From the IMG/VR virus record IMGVR_UViG_3300023440_000024, positions 1 to 24,893 of that record: a stretch of 24,893 nt of DNA. The stretch is one strand, 5' to 3'. Shown here in pieces: positions 10,351 through 23,402 of this stretch; position 1 is the first letter of the stretch, and each line of letters starts with the position of its first letter. A program made the position numbers and the translations under genes. Source of the DNA: a virus. The notes beneath the pieces are model-generated. The model searched no databases. It was not told the origin of the DNA and saw only the letters and a list, made by a program, of their open reading frames with translations.

Positions 10351-11481
10351 ATGCCATTATTTAATCCAACACAACAATTAAACTTAAATTATGCAGGATT
10401 AATGTCTTCTGCTAATGATAGTGCTAATACAGCTACAAAGATATTCCAAAATCTAGCACAACAACATCAAGCAAACCAAGATAAAACTAAAGCAGAATAT
10501 AGTAAATTTAATACTAATGCTCTCATATCTAAAGTACAAGGAATAGATACCTCTCTTACATTAGGACAGCAACAGCAAAAGAGACAAGAGATATTAGATT
10601 CTATTGGTTCTAATCAAAACTTAAACTTTGATGCTATTAATCAAGTAGTAGGTAATTCAGTTAAGTATGGTCAAGACGTATTTAATAAAAAAAGAGCATT
10701 TGATGAGACCGTAAAACAAGATACAGCTCAGAATTCATATAATTCTCAGCAGTTAACTAATAGTGCGAATAGAGCTAAATCCGCAGAACTAACTAGACTC
10801 GCTACTCTAGGTTACCAACAAAAGATGTTAGCACTTAAAAATAAACAGTTAACATTTGATCAAAACAATTCTCCTATTGCTCTCCAAGCTAGAGTAAATA
10901 AGGCTTTACATGATTCTATAGAAACTTCAACAGATGCTAATGGTAACACTGTAAAAAACTTAAATATGGATAACTTTAATGACGCTGTTGCTGGATTTCC
11001 TGCTAGTTATGTAAAAACCGCTGTTGATGGTTATAGATCAAATAATGGGTTAGATGCTAAGAGTGCTCAGGATAAAATAGAAAATGAACATGCATTTAAA
11101 GTAGCTACTCAACAATCACAGAATCTACTTACCAATTACAAAACACTTAAAGATAAAATAGCTACCCCAACTAATATACCTAAGAAAGAGTTAGAAAGTT
11201 TAGTTGAAACTTATGGTAATGCCCTAGATTACTTTAAAACAACTGATGGGGATAGGAATAGAATAAGACCAGCATTACAAGCTATGCTTAGGGCAGGTAT
11301 GAGCCTTAAAGATACACAAGCTAATGTAGCTGGTTTTAGGGGGTTTGGTGGGTTAACTATTGATGACCTAGTTGCTCAAGGTAATGACTATAGTGTTAGA
11401 ACACTTAATACAGAAAATAAAGCAAATGCCGCATTCCAAATATATAATAAAGCTATGAACTCTTCAAAAGGAAACCAATAA
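10351..11481 (+). CDS. Gln/Asn-rich internal virion protein upstream of vRNAP, N4 gp51-like position
   Basis: This is a 376-residue ORF with AGGA at 10341-10344, 6 bases before the ATG. It is soluble, strongly Gln/Asn/Ala-rich and mainly helical, with coiled-coil character around residues 20-60 and 120-180. A glycine-rich stretch (VAGFRGFGGLTIDDLVAQG) lies near residue 325-345. No catalytic motif, signal peptide or membrane segment is seen. It lies directly before the giant polymerase gene and its stop overlaps that start (TAATG), so the two are likely made in linked amounts. Position and composition suggest an internal protein packaged and ejected with vRNAP. The family is not independently recognised. 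Confidence 0.72.
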   Translation: MPLFNPTQQLNLNYAGLMSSANDSANTATKIFQNLAQQHQANQDKTKAEYSKFNTNALISKVQGIDTSLTLGQQQQKRQEILDSIGSNQNLNFDAINQVVGNSVKYGQDVFNKKRAFDETVKQDTAQNSYNSQQLTNSANRAKSAELTRLATLGYQQKMLALKNKQLTFDQNNSPIALQARVNKALHDSIETSTDANGNTVKNLNMDNFNDAVAGFPASYVKTAVDGYRSNNGLDAKSAQDKIENEHAFKVATQQSQNLLTNYKTLKDKIATPTNIPKKELESLVETYGNALDYFKTTDGDRNRIRPALQAMLRAGMSLKDTQANVAGFRGFGGLTIDDLVAQGNDYSVRTLNTENKANAAFQIYNKAMNSSKGNQ

Positions 11482-14400
11482 TGACTACTTATGGTTTTAC
11501 TGGATCTACTTATGGATTTACTGGAGATTCTAAGGAAGATATTGTAGCTAAAGCTTCTAAAGAGAAAGAAGATAACTTAATTAATACATCAGATATTAGT
11601 GTTATTGATGGAGATACCCTTAAAACTCCTGAAGGTAAGGTAAGATTAAATGGGTTTGATGCTTTTGAAATTAAAAAGGAACACCCAACTGTTGCACAAA
11701 CTAAACAGTTAAACCAAAATAGGGAATATTTAGCAGGAATATTTGGTTTGCCTACTGCATTAATACCTAATGAAAGTGTTTATAAGAGAGGGAATGAAGC
11801 TACTAAACTAACTTCAGATATTCTTAGTAAGCATGAGCAAGTAGCTATAGATAAGACAGGACAACATACCTTTGATAGAGTTGTAGCTAATGTTAGAGAC
11901 CCTAAAACCAATCAAGATATATTACAATCATTAAATACTCCTGAAAATAATCCTAATTGGGATTCAAGATACAATGCTGTAAATAAACTAAATTATACAC
12001 TTCAACAAGATATTATTGACTCTAAACCTCCTACACCAGGAGCATTATCTAATAATGAATCAGCTGATGGATTAGATTATCTAAATAACTTAGGTAGACA
12101 ATTTGGTTCAGGTCTTATAAGAACAGGTATAAACCTTGTTCAAACTGCAACTAAACCTGCAGAACTAAGTGGTAAAATTAGAATACCTAAAGAAAATTTA
12201 GATTTAGCTAAATCAATATCACTTAAAAAAGATAAGGGCATAGAACTAACTAAAGAAGAAAATAAATTTAGTAATAGTGTAGATTATTATGATGCTTCAA
12301 TAATTAACTTCTTTTCTTCATTTAATAAAGAAACAGATACATTTCAAAAGATAGTAGAAGATAGAGTAAATAATACTAAAGTAGCAAAATACCATAAGCA
12401 AGCAACAGATTTATGGAATTATGTTATTGCACCTAATTTAGAAAATGCTTCTAAACAGTTTGCAGAAGGTAAGTTTATTGATGGTAATATTTCATACATA
12501 AAAGCAACTACATCAGCCATAATAGGGCATTTTAACTTAGGTATTGATAATCCTAAAGCGGTTGGAGAAGTTGTAGCTAATAGCTTACCTGATTCTTATT
12601 TAGCAAAGAAAAGTATAGTGCTTGCAGGTATAAGTAACTTTGTAGATGCTACTGAAAAGAATTATAAAGAATTTGTAAAAGAACACAAAGGAAAAGAACC
12701 TAATACAAGTGATTGGGTAAAATTACTTACTTCTACATTTATAGGTACTGTTGCAGATGTAGGAGGGGATAAGTTTGTCTTTAAAGGTAAGCAAGACTTA
12801 GGTACTAAGTCCGTTGTTGAGGGTTTAAGTGAGAGTATTACAACAGCATCAGGACAAGTAGCTAGTGGTAAAGAGTTAGACCCTGCATCTATATTTGCAG
12901 ATGGGTCTATGGGTGCACATGCAGGTACAGTGACAGCATCATTAACTAATCCAATACAATCAGCTAAAGATATTAGAGATGCCTTTGCTCAATCATTAAG
13001 AGGAGCAGGTAATGTAGCAAGTATTCCTGTATCTATAGATAATGAATTAAGAAGACGTGCTAATGATAGACCTAAAGATAATTCTATTGACGTAACTGCA
13101 CCTGAAACACCCCCATTACTAAAAGCATTAAGTAAGATACCTAGAAAGGCTACTATAGGTACATTTAATGCAACAGATAAGATATTAACAGGTACAGCTA
13201 ATGTATTAGAAGGTAAACCAATCTTATCTGGTACTAATACTATACGTAATAACAATACAGTTAATAAAGCACCTAATGATGCTCTACATCCTAAAAATGT
13301 AGATAACTTAGGTAAAACTGTTAAAGAAGCTTCTGTTATTGCTGATGGATTTAAAACTAAAGCTATACCTACTGAAGAAGTTAAAGCTAAAACAATATCA
13401 GGTATTGATACATTAGTTAAAGAGTTAAATACAAAAGCATTACCATTCTTTAATGCAACTAATAAGAAAGTAGCTAAAGACCCTACATACGAACCAACAG
13501 ATAAAGAGAAAGAGGTAGCTTTAACAACTCTTAGCACTATATCTGGGTTACTTACTCGTAAAACAGAGTTAGAAGCTTCTAAAGCTCCTATTGCTGAAGT
13601 AGTAAAGAACTTACCTGATACTGAAGTATCTGATAAAGATTTTAATAATGTTATTGGTTCAGTTGAGTTTAGTTCAGATGAAGAAGTAGCTAAAGTTAAA
13701 GAAGAGTTAAAAGGAAAATTATCAAAAGAACAGTTAGATATACTAGATATAGCTACTACTAAAACATCTAAAGATGTTGGTGAAGAAATAAGAAAAGGTA
13801 CTGGAAAGAAGTTTAAAGGTATCAAATCACATATCTTAACAACACTTAGAGATATTGATGTAGCTAAAGAAATAGGCAATACTTCATTAGTAGAAGAAGA
13901 TTTAAGTAAATTATCTACTTGGAAAGATACCCAATTAGCTAAACAAAAAGGATTACAAGCAATATCGGATGTAATTAATACTGAAGGCTCTACAGTAGCC
14001 CAAATAGACAATGAAATAGCCAAACAGACTGATGCTGGGATGTTTTCAGAAGATATGGGTGATATTACCTATACCTCTAAAGAAGCCTTTAAAACGCTTA
14101 CAGACGCTGTAAATGAGGATACAACAGCAATAACTAAGGCTTACAGTGTTTTAGCTAGTAAAGCTAATAATGAGCTAAATTTAGATACCTTAAAAGTACC
14201 AGATACAAGCTCAGAAGATATATTAACTCCTACTGAAGTATTAAAAGAAGAATTACCTAAACAACGTAAACCACCTAAAACTACTGCTATTGCTGATGGT
14301 TTTGTATTACACCCTGCTGTAGATAGTATTGTAAGCGAACTTAATACTGATACAGGAAGCTTGGATAGTGAAGGTAAAAGACAACCATCAGTTAATCCAG

Positions 14401-17400
14401 AATGGTTTAAGAACAATTCTTTTTTACCTAGAAAAGTTAAAGGAACTGATGAAGAAGATAGAGTAAGTAAATCACCTTCAATTAAAAAAATAAGAGATAC
14501 CCTAGATTTATATAATAAAGGGGAAAACTTAACTAAATCAGAAGCTAGAATAATTGAAGAGTTACATGCTGTAGCTGTAGCAGAAGAAGAATTTAATAAT
14601 GAACAATATACTGAAGAACAAAAACAACTAACAATTAGAGTTAGAAATATTGAAAACTCTTTAATTGAGCAAGGTAAAGAAGATTTTATTGATGAATTAC
14701 ATGCTACTGTAGAAGACCCAACCATACTTCCACATGAACTAGACGAAGAGTTAAATGCTTATGAAACCAGTATCGAAAAGACTAACAAAGAAACAGAGAC
14801 AACAAACAGTGAAGTTACTAAAAAAGATGAGGAAATCAACACAACCAAAGGCTTAACTACAGATACTAGTAATACTGCTTTAGATACTTTACCTGATAAT
14901 ACTAATATAGAAGATACTATTAAGTATGATAATTATAATGAAGAAGATTTAAGTAATAATTATACCGAAGATGACTATAAGGTTGATCCAAATAATTATA
15001 CAGATTTAAAGGATGAAGTTGCTACAGATAAGCCTACTAAGGACAATACTGTAGAAGTACCTAATACTGATAACAATACTGGTTCTAATAAAATACCTAC
15101 AACACCTAAAGAAGCTTATTTATATACAGAAAAACAATTAGGTAAACCATTATTAAATCTTAAAAATTTTCCTAAAGAATTACAATATGTAGTAAAAGGA
15201 AGATTTGTAGAACATGTATATAATGGAGAATTTTCTGAAGATAGTAAAGGAAATATCCCTACTAGGTTAATTAATCCAAAGAAATTAGCATTACAAGCTA
15301 GATTATTTAATGCTGGTATTAGTTATGTATTAGATAGACGTGCAGGTAAAGTTAAACTCAATTACTTAACTAACTCTAAATCATTTATGTTAGGTAAATC
15401 TTTAGCAGAAAATATGATAGTTTCTGAATCTAAAGTAATAGGAGATACTCGTATAAATGATAAAGATTTTAAAGGTGCTATTACAGAAATTAATGGGGTA
15501 GATACATCTACTGTAGGTAAAATATTTCCTATAATTAAAAGTAAGATGAATACAACTGTAGGTGTTCAAGGAAAATATAATAAGACCTTACTTAATATAT
15601 TAGAAAAGGTTATAGCTAAAGATACTAGAATTGAGTTTTTATCTGAATTAACGTTTGAAGGACGAAGTGTAATAGGTCTTGCATATCCTGGAGATAAAAT
15701 TCAATTAGCTTTACCAACTAATGGTGATTTATCTGCATTAACTGTACTACAAGAAATCATTCACATGACTGTGGATGAAAAAATATTTGGTGATAACCCA
15801 ACACCTGATGCTATTAAGATTAAAAACGAAATTAAAGACTTAGTAACTAAATTTAGAAAAGCTATTGATGCAAGAGGTAATTCCTTAGGTAAACTAGAAA
15901 GAGATTATGTTAAACAATCAACTGACTCAAACTTAAATGAGTTTATTACTTATTCTTTAACTAATGAAGTTGTACAAAACTTAATGAGAGAAACTCCTTA
16001 TACTAGTACATCTAAATTTAATTTATTTCAAGTATTTACTAATAAAGTTAGAAGTTTACTTGGTTTAAAAAGTATTCCTAATACATTATTAGAACACGCT
16101 CTTTCAGTATCTTTTGCGGCTTTAAATGAAGCAAGCACTCAACCTAAAACACTTAAGTCTGATAGATTATTTTCATTTACTACAGATTCTTTCCCTAATA
16201 TACCCAAATATGTATTAAAGGGTTTTGAAGCTGATGCTACTAAAGATATTCAAGCAGAGTTAGATAGATTAACTACACCTGAAGATACTGAAGCAGATAT
16301 TAAAGAAGTAGAGAAGAGATTACATAAAGAGTATGCAACAGTATTTTCTAAACTAGCTAAAAAGGTAGTTAAACTAAACTTACCAAGTATTGTCGATATT
16401 GATTTGGATAAGTTTAAAGAAGAATTATTAAATGAATATACAAATACTAAGTTTAAAGGAATAGATACTTCTTGGATGAAGTCTATTAAAGTTAATGATA
16501 TTACTCCTGTTAAACAAGTATCTTTACAAAACACTTTAAACACTCATGATATACCTGTAAAGATAAATGCTTTAGGTTCTTTTGGTAAGAAAGGGATTGA
16601 AAAGTTAAGTAATGTAGTTAAGTTAAAACCAGTAAATAATATACTTAATAATTATTTAGATATATTTAAACCAGAGATTACTTCAACTATTCCTGAGTTT
16701 AAAGAATTATCTTCTAATGAGTTTAAAACTATTATAGAACTAAAGAAGTTTTTAATGCCATTTAAAGAAGCATTTATTAACTCAAGAGACCCTTATGTAA
16801 CAAGAAGAGGTACTGGAACTAATAAAGCTAAAACTAAGTTTAAAGTAGCTACTGACGATTTAATGGATTTATTAATTCCATTAGATATTTCTACCGACAC
16901 AATGAAAGATAAGTATGCTAATCTTTCCTATGCTCTAGGGATTAGTGGATTAAATTGGTTAAATACATCTGGTTTAGACTCTTTATACAATGATAAAGAT
17001 ACTATTAGAGCTACTTTAGGCATGAATCCTACTAATATTTTAAGTGATAAAACATACCATGCTTTCGCTAATTTAGGTACACAAAGATTACTAGTAGCTA
17101 ATAGTATTGGAGGAGACTTTTTAAATTCTATAGGCATTACAGCTAAGAAATCAGGTGTTCCTGCTGTTTTATTTGAAAAGCTAAAGACTTCTATAGGGTT
17201 ACATGCTATTACTCAGCTAGTAAGCTTAGGATACCTAGAAGAGTCTACAATGCCTTCTGATATATATAACAGCCATAAACAAGGTAATAGTGGTTTGGAT
17301 AAAGATGGTAATGAGTTTACTGAATTTAGTAATAATGAAGTAAATACATTTGTTAAAGCAGTACCTATAGATAATGCTGAAAATAAATATAAATTAGACT

Positions 17401-20400
17401 CAAGTATTTCAGAATTATTAAAGAATTTTAAAGGTAAAGAAGCTACTGCATTACTTAATAAATTATTTGGATTTAAATCTAAATTTACTAAAGTAAATAC
17501 AGAAATACCCACAAGAGAGGATATTCCTAAGCAATATAGAAATAGTGTAACAGACTTACCTGAAGCATTGATTGATGTAGTAGAAGCTTACTCAAGTATA
17601 CCAAGTCAACCTGATATAGCTGTACTAGATATGTATAAGCGTTTAGGTGATGATTTAGTTACTCAAATATTTGGTGGGTATTCTAAACAAGAGATAGATG
17701 AAGCTTATGTATTACAGCGGTTAGGTATGAAAGGTACTAATTTAGGTATTGAAAGACAGTTAAACATCCTTAGAGACTATAAAGAGAATACTGATATATC
17801 TTTACCTATTTACTTTAAAAACTGGTTAGGGAAGAATTTAAGGGTATTTATGGATGGCGATTTAAACACTCAATCATATAAAGCACACAGATATGCTATA
17901 GATCTTAAAGATTCTATTAGAACTATTGATAGTAATAAAAGTGAAGATAGAAAACAATTTATGATGATTGTTTTAGAAGCTTTAGGAGAGAAAGTAACAA
18001 ATACAAGTGAATACTCAACAGTTAAAGACAAGTTTGATTCTCTTATTAATACACCTAAAATAGCTAAAGCTATAGAAGCTATTAAAGGAGAGAATACTGA
18101 AGAAAATAATTTAGCTATTCTTACTGGTGTTAAGAAAGGAGGAGAGAAGGGATACTCATTTAAAGCTCTTATGGCTCTTACTAAGTATTCAGAAACAAAA
18201 GCATTTGAGACTGCACTAGTAAGAGAAGTAGATGGTACTACCAATGGTACAGCTAATGCTTTTATACAATTTGCAGGTAGTGTTAATAACGCTACACTAG
18301 ATAAAATACTAAATGCAGCAGGATTCTTTAGAAATAGTGTAGATAATTATGATACTCAAAAAGGTAATATAAAGAATTTAGATAACTATGAGAATACTGC
18401 AAGTACCTTTGTAGATATTAAACCAACATTAGATGAAGCATTACTTGAAGGAGCTAGTTCAATAACATTTGATGATATATCACTAGAACGTCAAAATATA
18501 CTTGATAATTCTTATAAAGCATTACAAGATATACTACCTGATACCAATATACACTCATTTATTGAAGCTATGACTGATGTTATAGGTACTCTTAAAAATC
18601 CAGAAGGTAAGGTATCTAGTGTAGCTAGGTCATTATTTAAGCCAGCATTAATGGTAATTAACTATGGAGCAGGTATTGCTAGTATTGTTAATGGAATGTC
18701 TGAAGAATTTTTAAATGATTTTTATATTAAATTATCAAAAGCAAATCTTATAGAGAATAAAGAACTTAGAGGAATAGAATTAACTAAACTAACCAATACA
18801 TTTAACACTATTGCATTAAATACTGGTAAAGATAAGGTTGATTTTAATGTAGATAAACCAATGGATTTATATATAAATCCTTCCTTACTTGAAACCTTTA
18901 AATACAATGCTGGATTATATTTAAGACCTATAGTTGGTGAAGCTCTTGGTAAAGATTTTAGTGAACTAAAAGAAAACTCATCAGTATTAAATGATGGTTT
19001 ATTAGTAATGTTTGAGATATTTAAACTTAAACATGCAAAAGCTATTATACAGTTTAAAAAAGATAATAAAGATAATACCCCATCAAAAGAAGAGCATGAT
19101 GAGATAATTAGAAGCTTAATTGATTATATACCTAGGATACATTTTAACGATTCTAATGAAGCATTAAATGATGCTTCTATACTATCTTCATCTAAAAAAG
19201 TATCTAAAGATCCATCAAGTAAAGTAAGTATTAGATATAAAGATAAAGAAGGTAATATAAAACAAGCTAAGGCAGGTGTACTAGAAGATCAGTTTGATGG
19301 TTTAGGTATAAGAGCTGTACCACAAGCAGTTATCATTACTGATGCACTTACAATGCACGAATTTATTAGACTTATGTCAGCAAAAGGTAATGGATTTACA
19401 GGTACACATGATGCTGGATACTTTGGTAAAGATATAGAAGAAAATGCTAAATTATTTAATCAAGCCCATAGTAATACACTAGATAACTATCATCCTGCTA
19501 AAGCAATCCAAGAAGTTGTATTAAAAGCATTAGATTTAGTAATTAATGATACTTCTATTACTAGAGAATTCCCTAAAATCTTTAAAACTATGGGTATAAG
19601 ATTCTATAATAGTAATGCTAAAACTAAGCATATTTACAATAATCTTAATGAATTTAAGAATTCTTTTAAATCTAAAACAGATTCAATAGTAGAAGATAGT
19701 TTAAATATTAAAAATGATTTTATTAATAGAGAAAACTATTATGCAGCTGGTAGTTTAGGTAAATCTGCTTATATTAAAGAGTCTGAAAATATCTCAGATA
19801 CTACCCCTAAAACAGAACAAACAGATTTATTAACTCAATTTAATGTTGAAATTGATAATGGATTAAACTCTAGTTCAGAAGCTTCTATACCTAAAGATGC
19901 TTTTAAAGGAGATAAAACAAAGGTAACTGTTAGTAATGCTTTAGAGGTGCTAAATTCTTTACCTGAAGGCTCTATTAAAGATTCTGAAGCACACAGTACC
20001 TATTTAAGAGAATCACTTTCAGAACTCATTACAGGACTTCTTAAACCAATAGATCTATATATACAAAATAATGATGGTAATACCTTTGGATTTATCACTA
20101 AGAATATGGATAAAATATTCTTAAATATAGCAAGTAAAGCTAATAAAGATATTCCTAATAGTGTAGTTCCTATGTCTCCTGCTACTACTTATGTACATGA
20201 GTTAAACCATGCAATAATAGTCCCTGCGTTGGAGGATAAAGCTAATTACACACTTAAACTCCAATTAAGTAGATTATTAAATAATGTTAGAAAAGCTGTA
20301 ATTGAAGATGATAAAGCCAATGGTACAGATAATTTTACTAAATATGCTCATATTTTTGATAATAAGAATGTTACTAAAATTATTAAAGAAAATGAAATAG

Positions 20401-23400
20401 GCAATAGTTCAGTTACTGAAACTAATATGGCATTAGCAGAGTTTAGTGCATTTACTAAATCTGAACCTGAATTTAGAAAACTATTAAATAGATTAGAAGG
20501 TACAGTAACTAGAAAAGTATTTGTTGGATCTATTATTCAAACAGTAGGTAATATAATTGCTAAGATACTACAATATTGGAATAAAACATTCAAAGACCAT
20601 GGTAGTAACTCTGCATTAGTACAAGCAGATAGACTCATACTATCTTTAGCAACTATTAATGCTAAAAGAGAAGCTAGTATGCTTGATAAGTTTGAAATAA
20701 GTAAAGCAATGGAAGATAAGCTAGATAGCTATCTACATAAAGCATCCAATTATGGACTTAATTTATTAAAGAAAGATTTTATATCTAAAAATTCATTAAA
20801 GATTATTAGAAACCCAGCTAATACTATAATTAAAGCTGTAGAAGCTAAGATAGTATTCCAAGCATGGCATGCTACAATGAATGAGTTTAGTCTTATGATG
20901 GGTACTACTGAACATAATATTATTAATGCTTTAGCTACTGAAGCTGAAGGAGAGACTGTATTAAGTAAAAATTACCATAGGTTACTGAGTTTATCTAATC
21001 ATGTTATTAACCAACTTAAAGAAACTAATAGTGAAGTATGGTCTAAGATGATACTAAACCAATATCATAAAGATACTAAACTAGATGATAGAACTAAACA
21101 AGCAATAGCTAAAGGCTTACTAGCTACAGATATGAGTTCATTAATGGATAAATATTCTCTTAATGATATGGCTAAACTGTTAACAGATACTAAGTATATA
21201 ACTAAGGAACTTAAAACTGTAAAAGATAAACTCACTTCTACTTATAAATCTAAAGGTACTGCACTAATAAACCAATCAATGAACTTAGGAGTGTATATGT
21301 CTTCTGGTTCATTTATTGAAGGAATAGATGGGGTACATAATGTAGCTCAAGTAATTAAGTTTGCTGGATTAAGTAACTTAAAGGAAGATGAATATAACAG
21401 TTTAGTTGAAGATATTACTCAACTATCAAGGTTATATGCTATTAAGTATACATCTAAAGAAGATAAAGATATTACTGCTAATGTTATTAAAGAAGAGTTA
21501 TCTAATCAAGCAAAAGACTCTAGTAAAGGTAATGGAATATTATTTACATTAGATCATCATAATCTTAACAAAGAAGAATATTTAAAAGATATTCTTAAAG
21601 GCAATAAAAATCTTATTAAAGATGGGTATACTAAAGATGTTTTTAATCCAAACTTATCAGTTGTTATAGGTACTTTAGATGAAGAAACTAGATTAATAAG
21701 TCAAGGTTATACTAGGTCATTACTACCTAAGATTAAATCTAAAATGGATGCTAGTAAAGAAGATCTTTATGTTTATACATCTAAAGTTGGTTCTAATATG
21801 TCATATCAAAAGATGATATTTTCTTTAACTAAACTTAATAATAATATATCTGATTACTCAGATGGTTATATTATGTCTGAAGATACTAGAGATACTATGA
21901 CTAAGTTTATTAAACCAAGATACATTAGAAGACAGTTAACACAGAGTAACTCAAGATTATTTACTAGGGTTCTTAATGAAGATACTATCTTAGATAATAC
22001 ATCAGACTTAGCTACTATTTATAATAAAGACTTAAAAATTATTGGTTATAAATATATTATGAACCATAATGATAAAAATACTTTATTAGAAAGAGATACT
22101 GATTTTAGTAACATACTTGCCATTGGTAGAGCAGAAATTGCTGATAAATTAAATACTCAAGATATTAATAAAAAAGCTGTAGACCTAATGTTTGAGGACT
22201 TTAATGATACTGTTCATAGAGGAAATGTATATGCAAAGCAATTTGTAGATATATCAACAGATAAAGAGTATGCAAATCAATTTAAAATGCTACCTGAAGA
22301 AACTAGAAACTACATTAATGGACTGTGGGGAGATAGTGAAGTATACATAAGAAGAGATATGGCTAAAATTCTCCTTGGATACAGAAACCAAACTATTACT
22401 GATTGGATTAGACCTACAGATATTACAGATAAACATGAAAACTCTTTATTAAGAGTTATGGGTAATAGTTTTAGTAAACTTATCAATCCTAAGTTTCTTA
22501 AAAACTCTGAATTAATACTAAAAGATTATGTAAAACTAAAGAAAGATGCCATTGTAATTAAATCTGGTACAGTTTTAGGATATAACATATTAAGTAATGA
22601 TACTCTTTTATGGTTAAAGGGAGTTAATGCACATGAAAGGATTAATGGATATGCTACTGCTTCTATAGCATTAGAGAATTACTTAGCAGATGCTAAAAAA
22701 TTAAATATTCTTAAATCCAGAATAGATATAGATAATACTAAACCATCTAACAATAGAACTTTAGCTACGAAACACAGAATAAGACTTAAAACATTGCAAG
22801 ATAGAGTAGATTCTAATCCTGTAAAAGACTTAATAGACTTAGCTGTATTTCAATCTTTTGTTGAAGATATTAGTAATAATGAACTAGATAATTCATTTAA
22901 AAGTAAAATCAATGAAATAATTGAACCAATTAATAATAAGATACCTAGTGGTCTTAAGACAATAGGTAATGAAGCTATTATGGGGCATGAGACTAAACTA
23001 TATCAATTCCTTAAACATACAACACAGTACAGTGATTTTGTAGCTAGATATATACTTAATGAGCATAATTTAAAGAGTGGTATGACTCAAGATGAAAGTC
23101 TTACAGATATTAATGAAACATTTGTACAGTATGACTTACCAACTCATCCAACACTACAATACTTAAATGATATTGGTTTAGTTATGTTTTCTAAATTCTT
23201 TATAAGAATACAAAAAGTAATATTAAAATCTGTAGTTAGGAAACCTGCAAGAGCTTTAATATTAATGCTTTCAAATACTTTATTTGGTTTTGATAACATA
23301 TTAAGCAGTACAGCTACACTAAACTCAGCTTTATTTAGAATAAGTAACCCAGTAAACCCTGAACCATTTACTGAATTACTTATATATAAACCTATTAATT

Positions 23401-23402
23401 AA
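11481..23402 (+). CDS. Giant virion RNA polymerase (N4 vRNAP-like) with added SNase-like and zincin-like domains
   Basis: This 3973-residue protein is longer than N4 vRNAP (about 3500). AAAAGGA at 11466-11472 supports the start. The RNA polymerase core spans roughly residues 1700-2800: an Arg-containing T/DxxGR-like segment (GKNLR, R2121, then LNTQSYKAHR), motif A (EVDGTTNG, D2251), motif B Rx3Kx7YG (R2383, K2387, Y2395, G2396) and motif C (THD, H2643, D2644). K-to-Y spacing equals that of N4 and T7 enzymes. Such enzymes are packaged, ejected and transcribe early genes from hairpin promoters on single-stranded DNA. Other parts: duplicated YGFTG at 4-15; SNase-like domain ~38-140 (D45, R55, D60, E63, R133); Gly/Ala-rich segment near 360-520; disordered acidic linker ~1085-1210; zincin-like module with degenerate QEIIH 1424-1428; second one with intact HELNH 2906-2910; ~900-residue helical C-terminus. 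Activity of the extra domains is inference. Confidence 0.9.
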   Translation: MTTYGFTGSTYGFTGDSKEDIVAKASKEKEDNLINTSDISVIDGDTLKTPEGKVRLNGFDAFEIKKEHPTVAQTKQLNQNREYLAGIFGLPTALIPNESVYKRGNEATKLTSDILSKHEQVAIDKTGQHTFDRVVANVRDPKTNQDILQSLNTPENNPNWDSRYNAVNKLNYTLQQDIIDSKPPTPGALSNNESADGLDYLNNLGRQFGSGLIRTGINLVQTATKPAELSGKIRIPKENLDLAKSISLKKDKGIELTKEENKFSNSVDYYDASIINFFSSFNKETDTFQKIVEDRVNNTKVAKYHKQATDLWNYVIAPNLENASKQFAEGKFIDGNISYIKATTSAIIGHFNLGIDNPKAVGEVVANSLPDSYLAKKSIVLAGISNFVDATEKNYKEFVKEHKGKEPNTSDWVKLLTSTFIGTVADVGGDKFVFKGKQDLGTKSVVEGLSESITTASGQVASGKELDPASIFADGSMGAHAGTVTASLTNPIQSAKDIRDAFAQSLRGAGNVASIPVSIDNELRRRANDRPKDNSIDVTAPETPPLLKALSKIPRKATIGTFNATDKILTGTANVLEGKPILSGTNTIRNNNTVNKAPNDALHPKNVDNLGKTVKEASVIADGFKTKAIPTEEVKAKTISGIDTLVKELNTKALPFFNATNKKVAKDPTYEPTDKEKEVALTTLSTISGLLTRKTELEASKAPIAEVVKNLPDTEVSDKDFNNVIGSVEFSSDEEVAKVKEELKGKLSKEQLDILDIATTKTSKDVGEEIRKGTGKKFKGIKSHILTTLRDIDVAKEIGNTSLVEEDLSKLSTWKDTQLAKQKGLQAISDVINTEGSTVAQIDNEIAKQTDAGMFSEDMGDITYTSKEAFKTLTDAVNEDTTAITKAYSVLASKANNELNLDTLKVPDTSSEDILTPTEVLKEELPKQRKPPKTTAIADGFVLHPAVDSIVSELNTDTGSLDSEGKRQPSVNPEWFKNNSFLPRKVKGTDEEDRVSKSPSIKKIRDTLDLYNKGENLTKSEARIIEELHAVAVAEEEFNNEQYTEEQKQLTIRVRNIENSLIEQGKEDFIDELHATVEDPTILPHELDEELNAYETSIEKTNKETETTNSEVTKKDEEINTTKGLTTDTSNTALDTLPDNTNIEDTIKYDNYNEEDLSNNYTEDDYKVDPNNYTDLKDEVATDKPTKDNTVEVPNTDNNTGSNKIPTTPKEAYLYTEKQLGKPLLNLKNFPKELQYVVKGRFVEHVYNGEFSEDSKGNIPTRLINPKKLALQARLFNAGISYVLDRRAGKVKLNYLTNSKSFMLGKSLAENMIVSESKVIGDTRINDKDFKGAITEINGVDTSTVGKIFPIIKSKMNTTVGVQGKYNKTLLNILEKVIAKDTRIEFLSELTFEGRSVIGLAYPGDKIQLALPTNGDLSALTVLQEIIHMTVDEKIFGDNPTPDAIKIKNEIKDLVTKFRKAIDARGNSLGKLERDYVKQSTDSNLNEFITYSLTNEVVQNLMRETPYTSTSKFNLFQVFTNKVRSLLGLKSIPNTLLEHALSVSFAALNEASTQPKTLKSDRLFSFTTDSFPNIPKYVLKGFEADATKDIQAELDRLTTPEDTEADIKEVEKRLHKEYATVFSKLAKKVVKLNLPSIVDIDLDKFKEELLNEYTNTKFKGIDTSWMKSIKVNDITPVKQVSLQNTLNTHDIPVKINALGSFGKKGIEKLSNVVKLKPVNNILNNYLDIFKPEITSTIPEFKELSSNEFKTIIELKKFLMPFKEAFINSRDPYVTRRGTGTNKAKTKFKVATDDLMDLLIPLDISTDTMKDKYANLSYALGISGLNWLNTSGLDSLYNDKDTIRATLGMNPTNILSDKTYHAFANLGTQRLLVANSIGGDFLNSIGITAKKSGVPAVLFEKLKTSIGLHAITQLVSLGYLEESTMPSDIYNSHKQGNSGLDKDGNEFTEFSNNEVNTFVKAVPIDNAENKYKLDSSISELLKNFKGKEATALLNKLFGFKSKFTKVNTEIPTREDIPKQYRNSVTDLPEALIDVVEAYSSIPSQPDIAVLDMYKRLGDDLVTQIFGGYSKQEIDEAYVLQRLGMKGTNLGIERQLNILRDYKENTDISLPIYFKNWLGKNLRVFMDGDLNTQSYKAHRYAIDLKDSIRTIDSNKSEDRKQFMMIVLEALGEKVTNTSEYSTVKDKFDSLINTPKIAKAIEAIKGENTEENNLAILTGVKKGGEKGYSFKALMALTKYSETKAFETALVREVDGTTNGTANAFIQFAGSVNNATLDKILNAAGFFRNSVDNYDTQKGNIKNLDNYENTASTFVDIKPTLDEALLEGASSITFDDISLERQNILDNSYKALQDILPDTNIHSFIEAMTDVIGTLKNPEGKVSSVARSLFKPALMVINYGAGIASIVNGMSEEFLNDFYIKLSKANLIENKELRGIELTKLTNTFNTIALNTGKDKVDFNVDKPMDLYINPSLLETFKYNAGLYLRPIVGEALGKDFSELKENSSVLNDGLLVMFEIFKLKHAKAIIQFKKDNKDNTPSKEEHDEIIRSLIDYIPRIHFNDSNEALNDASILSSSKKVSKDPSSKVSIRYKDKEGNIKQAKAGVLEDQFDGLGIRAVPQAVIITDALTMHEFIRLMSAKGNGFTGTHDAGYFGKDIEENAKLFNQAHSNTLDNYHPAKAIQEVVLKALDLVINDTSITREFPKIFKTMGIRFYNSNAKTKHIYNNLNEFKNSFKSKTDSIVEDSLNIKNDFINRENYYAAGSLGKSAYIKESENISDTTPKTEQTDLLTQFNVEIDNGLNSSSEASIPKDAFKGDKTKVTVSNALEVLNSLPEGSIKDSEAHSTYLRESLSELITGLLKPIDLYIQNNDGNTFGFITKNMDKIFLNIASKANKDIPNSVVPMSPATTYVHELNHAIIVPALEDKANYTLKLQLSRLLNNVRKAVIEDDKANGTDNFTKYAHIFDNKNVTKIIKENEIGNSSVTETNMALAEFSAFTKSEPEFRKLLNRLEGTVTRKVFVGSIIQTVGNIIAKILQYWNKTFKDHGSNSALVQADRLILSLATINAKREASMLDKFEISKAMEDKLDSYLHKASNYGLNLLKKDFISKNSLKIIRNPANTIIKAVEAKIVFQAWHATMNEFSLMMGTTEHNIINALATEAEGETVLSKNYHRLLSLSNHVINQLKETNSEVWSKMILNQYHKDTKLDDRTKQAIAKGLLATDMSSLMDKYSLNDMAKLLTDTKYITKELKTVKDKLTSTYKSKGTALINQSMNLGVYMSSGSFIEGIDGVHNVAQVIKFAGLSNLKEDEYNSLVEDITQLSRLYAIKYTSKEDKDITANVIKEELSNQAKDSSKGNGILFTLDHHNLNKEEYLKDILKGNKNLIKDGYTKDVFNPNLSVVIGTLDEETRLISQGYTRSLLPKIKSKMDASKEDLYVYTSKVGSNMSYQKMIFSLTKLNNNISDYSDGYIMSEDTRDTMTKFIKPRYIRRQLTQSNSRLFTRVLNEDTILDNTSDLATIYNKDLKIIGYKYIMNHNDKNTLLERDTDFSNILAIGRAEIADKLNTQDINKKAVDLMFEDFNDTVHRGNVYAKQFVDISTDKEYANQFKMLPEETRNYINGLWGDSEVYIRRDMAKILLGYRNQTITDWIRPTDITDKHENSLLRVMGNSFSKLINPKFLKNSELILKDYVKLKKDAIVIKSGTVLGYNILSNDTLLWLKGVNAHERINGYATASIALENYLADAKKLNILKSRIDIDNTKPSNNRTLATKHRIRLKTLQDRVDSNPVKDLIDLAVFQSFVEDISNNELDNSFKSKINEIIEPINNKIPSGLKTIGNEAIMGHETKLYQFLKHTTQYSDFVARYILNEHNLKSGMTQDESLTDINETFVQYDLPTHPTLQYLNDIGLVMFSKFFIRIQKVILKSVVRKPARALILMLSNTLFGFDNILSSTATLNSALFRISNPVNPEPFTELLIYKPIN

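Follow-up and report, generated by a model that had tools for sequence, protein, structure and literature searches.

Phage N4 packages and ejects its virion RNA polymerase (vRNAP), which is found in association with the inner membrane (PMC12633501). N4-like RNA polymerases also belong to the polyvalent proteins, giant injected phage proteins of many domains, among which they have been found fused to a metallopeptidase (MPTase), a lysozyme, a PBECR RNase or an ADP-ribosyltransferase (ART) (Iyer et al. 2017; PMC5512222). The N-terminal part of the vRNAP is the least understood. The vRNAP described here carries at its N-terminus a domain resembling staphylococcal nuclease (SNase), an addition to the known fusions. 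An earlier report of an SNase or thermonuclease fused to a vRNAP was not found in the literature searched, which left most subscription papers out of reach.

The window analyzed is the complete 24,893-base contig of the IMG/VR virus record IMGVR_UViG_3300023440_000024. On its plus strand genes for a portal, a tape-measure-like protein, a major head protein and other virion proteins are followed by an ORF of 3973 amino acids, and RusA-like and SSB genes are located on the minus strand beyond this giant ORF. The gene order resembles the Schitoviridae arrangement in phages pVco-5 and phi 1. The giant ORF matches the virion RNA polymerase family phrog_2206 with an E-value of 2.5e-291, and tblastn led to 468 phage records, which among the matches listed were mostly schitovirus vRNAPs. 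D2251, R2383, K2387 and D2644 lie in columns that are invariant across five diverse vRNAPs and are presumably part of the single-subunit RNAP motifs A, B and C. Judged by its sequence, the ORF is an N4-like vRNAP, and by analogy with N4 it would be packaged in the virion and ejected (PMC12633501). The features of the locus are the following:

11481..23402, plus strand: giant vRNAP ORF of 3973 aa, N4-like (Schitoviridae-type), identified by phrog_2206, tblastn and the RNAP motifs
11592..12005, plus strand: SNase-like (OB-fold nuclease) domain, residues ~38-175, supported by a thermonuclease profile, phrog_18798/452, hhalign, and AF2 with Foldseek/VIA-align
11607..11615, plus strand: D43-G-D45, equivalent to SNase D19-G20-D21 with the Ca2+ ligand D21; invariant in nine vRNAPs and the SNase of phage H4/4
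11643..11645, plus strand: R55, equivalent to SNase R35; invariant in the nine vRNAPs and H4/4
11658..11669, plus strand: D60 and E63, equivalent to SNase D40 and E43; E63 invariant, D60 Asp in seven of nine vRNAPs
11670..11800, plus strand: stretch holding the insertion that separates E63 from the first SNase-type helix, at the position of the SNase omega loop, with an extra predicted helix (alignment, DSSP of the model)
11877..11879, plus strand: R133, equivalent to SNase R87; invariant in the nine vRNAPs and H4/4
11946..11975, plus strand: C-terminal motif around N157 and N165, both invariant in the vRNAP set, at the start of the C-terminal helix (vRNAP alignments)
12072..12170, plus strand: beginning of the usual vRNAP N-terminal domain (NTD), matched by eye to N4 segment ~110-145

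The giant ORF begins with an ATG that shares bases with the stop codon of the preceding frame, and it continues without interruption through the polymerase, indicating that the SNase-like domain is the true N-terminus of the vRNAP. The domain contains the motifs VIDGDT (residues 41-46; 11601-11618), VRLNGFDAFE (residues 54-63; 11640-11669) and TFDRVVANV (residues 130-138; 11868-11894). In the numbering of the ORF, D45, R55, D60, E63 and R133 lie exactly where an earlier note on this DNA, made from the sequence alone, had placed them. The same note gave the domain as 11592-11900; start and motifs were right, but the end was set too short, as the domain extends to roughly residue 175 (~12005). 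An insertion of ~26 residues separates E63 from the first SNase-type helix. Downstream, the stretch 12072..12170 can be matched by eye with residues ~110-145 of N4, a segment that has a hydrophobic peak at 121-141, so the SNase-like domain precedes the ordinary NTD. The protein is a candidate polyvalent protein: it is multidomain, with RNAP, an HExxH motif at residues 2906-2910 and the SNase-like domain, and by the N4 example it would be injected. The HExxH copy reads HELNH (20196-20210) and is located in the C-terminal domain of the vRNAP, as known from N4. Ahead of the RNAP core there is another copy of the motif in degenerate form, QEIIH (residues 1424-1428; 15750-15764), which may be the remnant of a decayed metallopeptidase domain.

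The domain is too divergent for the standard family model. The Pfam SNase model PF00565 gave no match in the window or the clade members, which stay below its gathering threshold, and a phmmer search of the PDB with the single window sequence returned nothing. This threshold limits detection and does not define the fold. Since PF00565 does not match, we speak of a divergent SNase-like domain and base the assignment on profile-profile and fold evidence. Two phage protein families, phrog_18798 and phrog_452, match the window domain at about 3e-5, and the same families are matched by three genuine plasmid thermonucleases. A profile built from nine plasmid thermonucleases (A7) found only two stretches in the entire contig, 11532-11714 and 11781-11909, in the correct order (E 5.7e-6 and 2.5e-4). 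A7 also matched the vRNAP of contig L062 and, with an E-value of 7.9e-28, the ejection protein of phage H4/4; in the same search it had no match in nine viral contigs with SNase-less vRNAPs or in two cultured schitoviruses. As the negative controls stayed empty but the profile missed six of the eight other contigs that carry the domain, it is specific and not sensitive.

Comparison by hhalign of A7 with a profile of eight vRNAP N-termini (A5) resulted in 94.8% and a score of 55.6. The controls gave at most 0.2% and a score of at most 14.0 for 60 column shuffles, 6.5% for the reversed alignment, and 0.03% with a score of 8.6 for ten SNase-less vRNAP N-termini. The absence of a Pfam match, together with a single-sequence AF2 prediction of the window domain that showed no fold (pLDDT 40), might suggest that some unrelated N-terminal domain happens to contain a DGDT-type motif. 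This explanation is very improbable, because independent tests by profile, profile-profile alignment, fold and conservation lead to the same answer and are accompanied by shuffled and negative controls; the shuffled-column and SNase-less vRNAP controls of hhalign led us to reject a chance match.

With the eight-row A5 alignment as input, AF2 produced a model of moderate confidence (pLDDT 69, pTM 0.62) with the element order beta-beta-beta-beta-helix-helix-beta-beta-helix. A prediction lacking an SNase fold had been named beforehand as the result that would speak against the assignment; instead, the best 50 Foldseek rows from the PDB were all staphylococcal nuclease (prob 0.96-1.0), at E-values of only 5e-3 and up and TM-scores of 0.37-0.50. 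VIA-align superimposed 108 residues on 1sta with an rmsd of 3.2 and a middling Z of 8.1. The catalytic residues sit on the expected secondary-structure elements, with low confidence for the loop containing E63 (pLDDT ~47). The fold of the model also resembles the extended Tudor domains of SND1, TDRD1 and Qin.

Searches of IMG/VR with the vRNAP core revealed the same N-terminal domain in eight more vRNAPs of uncultured phages, whereas a scan of IMG/VR with the window N-terminus alone found no relative. A DGDT scan first drew attention to L062 and L070, the reading of N-termini to L064, L047 and L010, and a profile to L021, L103 and L120. Seven of the eight are only 20-26% identical to the window domain. 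When these nine vRNAPs were aligned with the SNase of the unrelated H4/4 ejection protein (ten rows), the only invariant columns were D43, D45, R55, E63 and R133. The nine vRNAPs alone have seven invariant columns out of 160, which include four of the five residues that the earlier note had listed (hypergeometric P 7e-6); omitting D45, because DGDT had served to spot two of the rows, P is 2e-4. The position of D60 is occupied by Asp in seven of the nine vRNAPs and by Asn in L064 and L103, and Asn is found at the D40 position of two plasmid-borne thermonucleases as well. Some carriers of the domain have long insertions in the active-site loop. The vRNAP frames of L062, L064, L070, L047, L057 and L105 comprise ~4100-4530 residues, compared with ~3500 in N4.

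The likeness to extended Tudor domains, the omega-loop insertions and the Asn at the D40 position in two members could mean that the SNase fold was retained only for binding of nucleic acid or protein in the manner of Tudor-SN, without catalysis. We regard such a binding-only role as unlikely: the equivalents of D21, R35, E43 and R87 are invariant in nine divergent vRNAPs, a set that OB domains used for binding would not need in exactly this form, and the Asn is shared with plasmid-borne thermonucleases. Profile, fold and conservation tests uphold the domain assignment and residue mapping made earlier, and demonstrate that the N-terminus of the window vRNAP is homologous to SNase and has kept the catalytic residue set.

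It had been noted before that the vRNAP of N4 is not known to carry such a domain, and inspection of the N4 sequence confirmed that an SNase-like N-terminus is missing; the same holds for the cultured schitoviruses inspected, pVco-5, PT15-A5, FMD5 and phi 1. A tblastn search of cultured phages with the 300 N-terminal residues of the window protein found nothing at E<=1, and at a limit of 10 only weak matches outside vRNAP genes, one of which, the internal virion protein of H4/4, is a real SNase. Using the domains of the window, L120, L062 and L021, tblastn, which is weak at such divergence, detected no cultured vRNAP carrier, and the GTDB genome contigs contained no relative by the patterns used. 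A FastTree phylogeny built on 53 vRNAP cores places the window and six other domain carriers in one well supported group and the remaining two, L047 and L070, in a second one, so that the domain needs two changes on the tree. L047 and L070 are on long branches, which makes the placement of their group unsure, and for both reasons we do not claim a single origin. Identity between L064 and L103 is 67% for residues 1-246 and falls to 18-26% in the next ~350 residues. This drop indicates that the SNase block behaves as a module, and it points to mosaic exchange of the block between these vRNAPs. Within the block, dN between these two is 0.16 and dS 0.48 (dN/dS about 0.34).

SNases cut both DNA and RNA and are Ca2+ enzymes. 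The domain is likely to be a non-specific nuclease that is active and injected. In the reading that we favor, and consider somewhat better than an even bet, the first ~190 residues of the window vRNAP are an added SNase-family module that is delivered with the genome and serves as an early conflict effector against nucleic acid on the host side. By comparison with characterized families, the module would hydrolyze DNA and RNA with Ca2+, the R35- and R87-type arginines and the E43-type acid. As part of a vRNAP that follows the N4 example, it would be packaged in the virion, be threaded through the tail and, as infection begins, arrive together with the genome at the inner membrane or close to it. 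Host DNA or RNA, or resident rival DNA, would most likely be degraded, the exact target being a guess; the contig contains no clue to the target or to self-protection. In other vRNAP-type polyvalent proteins, which are known to carry conflict enzymes, the same slot is filled by an RNase or an ADP-ribosyltransferase, and their repertoire of MPTase, lysozyme, PBECR RNase and ART (PMC5512222) makes an injected nuclease fit an early role in host takeover. The proposal of the earlier note that the nuclease cuts host or rival DNA, or acts during DNA entry, is plausible. More tentatively, one lineage of schitoviruses may use a nuclease tethered to the transcriptase against incoming or resident DNA at the site of ejection, sparing its own genome by spatial or Ca2+ control, as a virion-borne nuclease for superinfection exclusion or host takeover.

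The level of free Ca2+ in the cytoplasm is normally low for an SNase, which counts against a cytoplasmic nuclease. The main alternative is a role in the periplasm or the entry channel, with the N-terminus outside the inner membrane at high Ca2+, where the enzyme would clear rival-phage or transforming DNA or aid the passage of the genome. It is the main alternative because SNases want Ca2+ and because the SNase of H4/4 follows an endolysin-annotated ORF; in H4/4 and R8W the SNase is near the front of the ejection protein, and in the window it precedes the NTD of the vRNAP, a domain that in N4 inserts into membranes (PMC12633501). Against it, the first 1000 residues of the window vRNAP have no clear hydrophobic membrane segment, and we consider the periplasmic role rather doubtful. 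On the favored reading, N4-like phages have a nuclease among the transcriptase-fused enzymes that they inject. When a non-specific nuclease is packaged next to the genome of its own phage, a question of control arises: the phage genome might be spared by an unfolded state of the domain in the capsid, by low cytoplasmic Ca2+ acting as a switch, or by physical separation. The Ca2+ dependence of SNases could moreover reveal which compartment the N-terminus of the vRNAP occupies.

Other phage SNases differ in context. In the Alteromonas phages H4/4 and R8W, too, an SNase lies close to the front of a giant gp16-like ejection protein, annotated as internal virion protein, but these phages are T7-like (H4/4 belongs to the Autographiviridae) and without vRNAP, and the SNase of H4/4 is closer to ordinary thermonucleases. 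In H4/4 (L004:5501-6400) the endolysin-annotated ORF is joined to the SNase-fronted gp16-like protein by an annotated -1 frameshift. The SNases of Moraxella phage Mcat8 and Curvibacter phage TJ1 were rejected as precedents, as they are separate ORFs of <=240 aa. The family phrog_8809, 2317 positions long and of unknown function, contains an SNase-like stretch at ~1075-1242 and could be one more giant virion protein that has a nuclease in its interior. The best viral Foldseek match, BFVD A0A516LXN0_1, is a 983-aa piece and may represent another long viral protein bearing an SNase-like domain.

With the staphylococcal nuclease/thermonuclease family (PF00565) the window domain shares the fold and the catalytic pattern D-x-D, R, (D/N), E, R; it differs by the fusion to a vRNAP, the insertion in the omega-loop region and a divergence below Pfam detection. 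Among the polyvalent proteins, an SNase is absent from the main text of PMC5512222. Like the vRNAPs of N4 (gp50) and other Schitoviridae, the window protein has the vRNAP core and an HExxH-bearing C-terminal region, and its gene follows those for portal, coat and ejection proteins. The NTD of N4 has been described as helical and membrane-inserting (PMC12633501); to this architecture the window vRNAP adds an SNase-like N-terminus.
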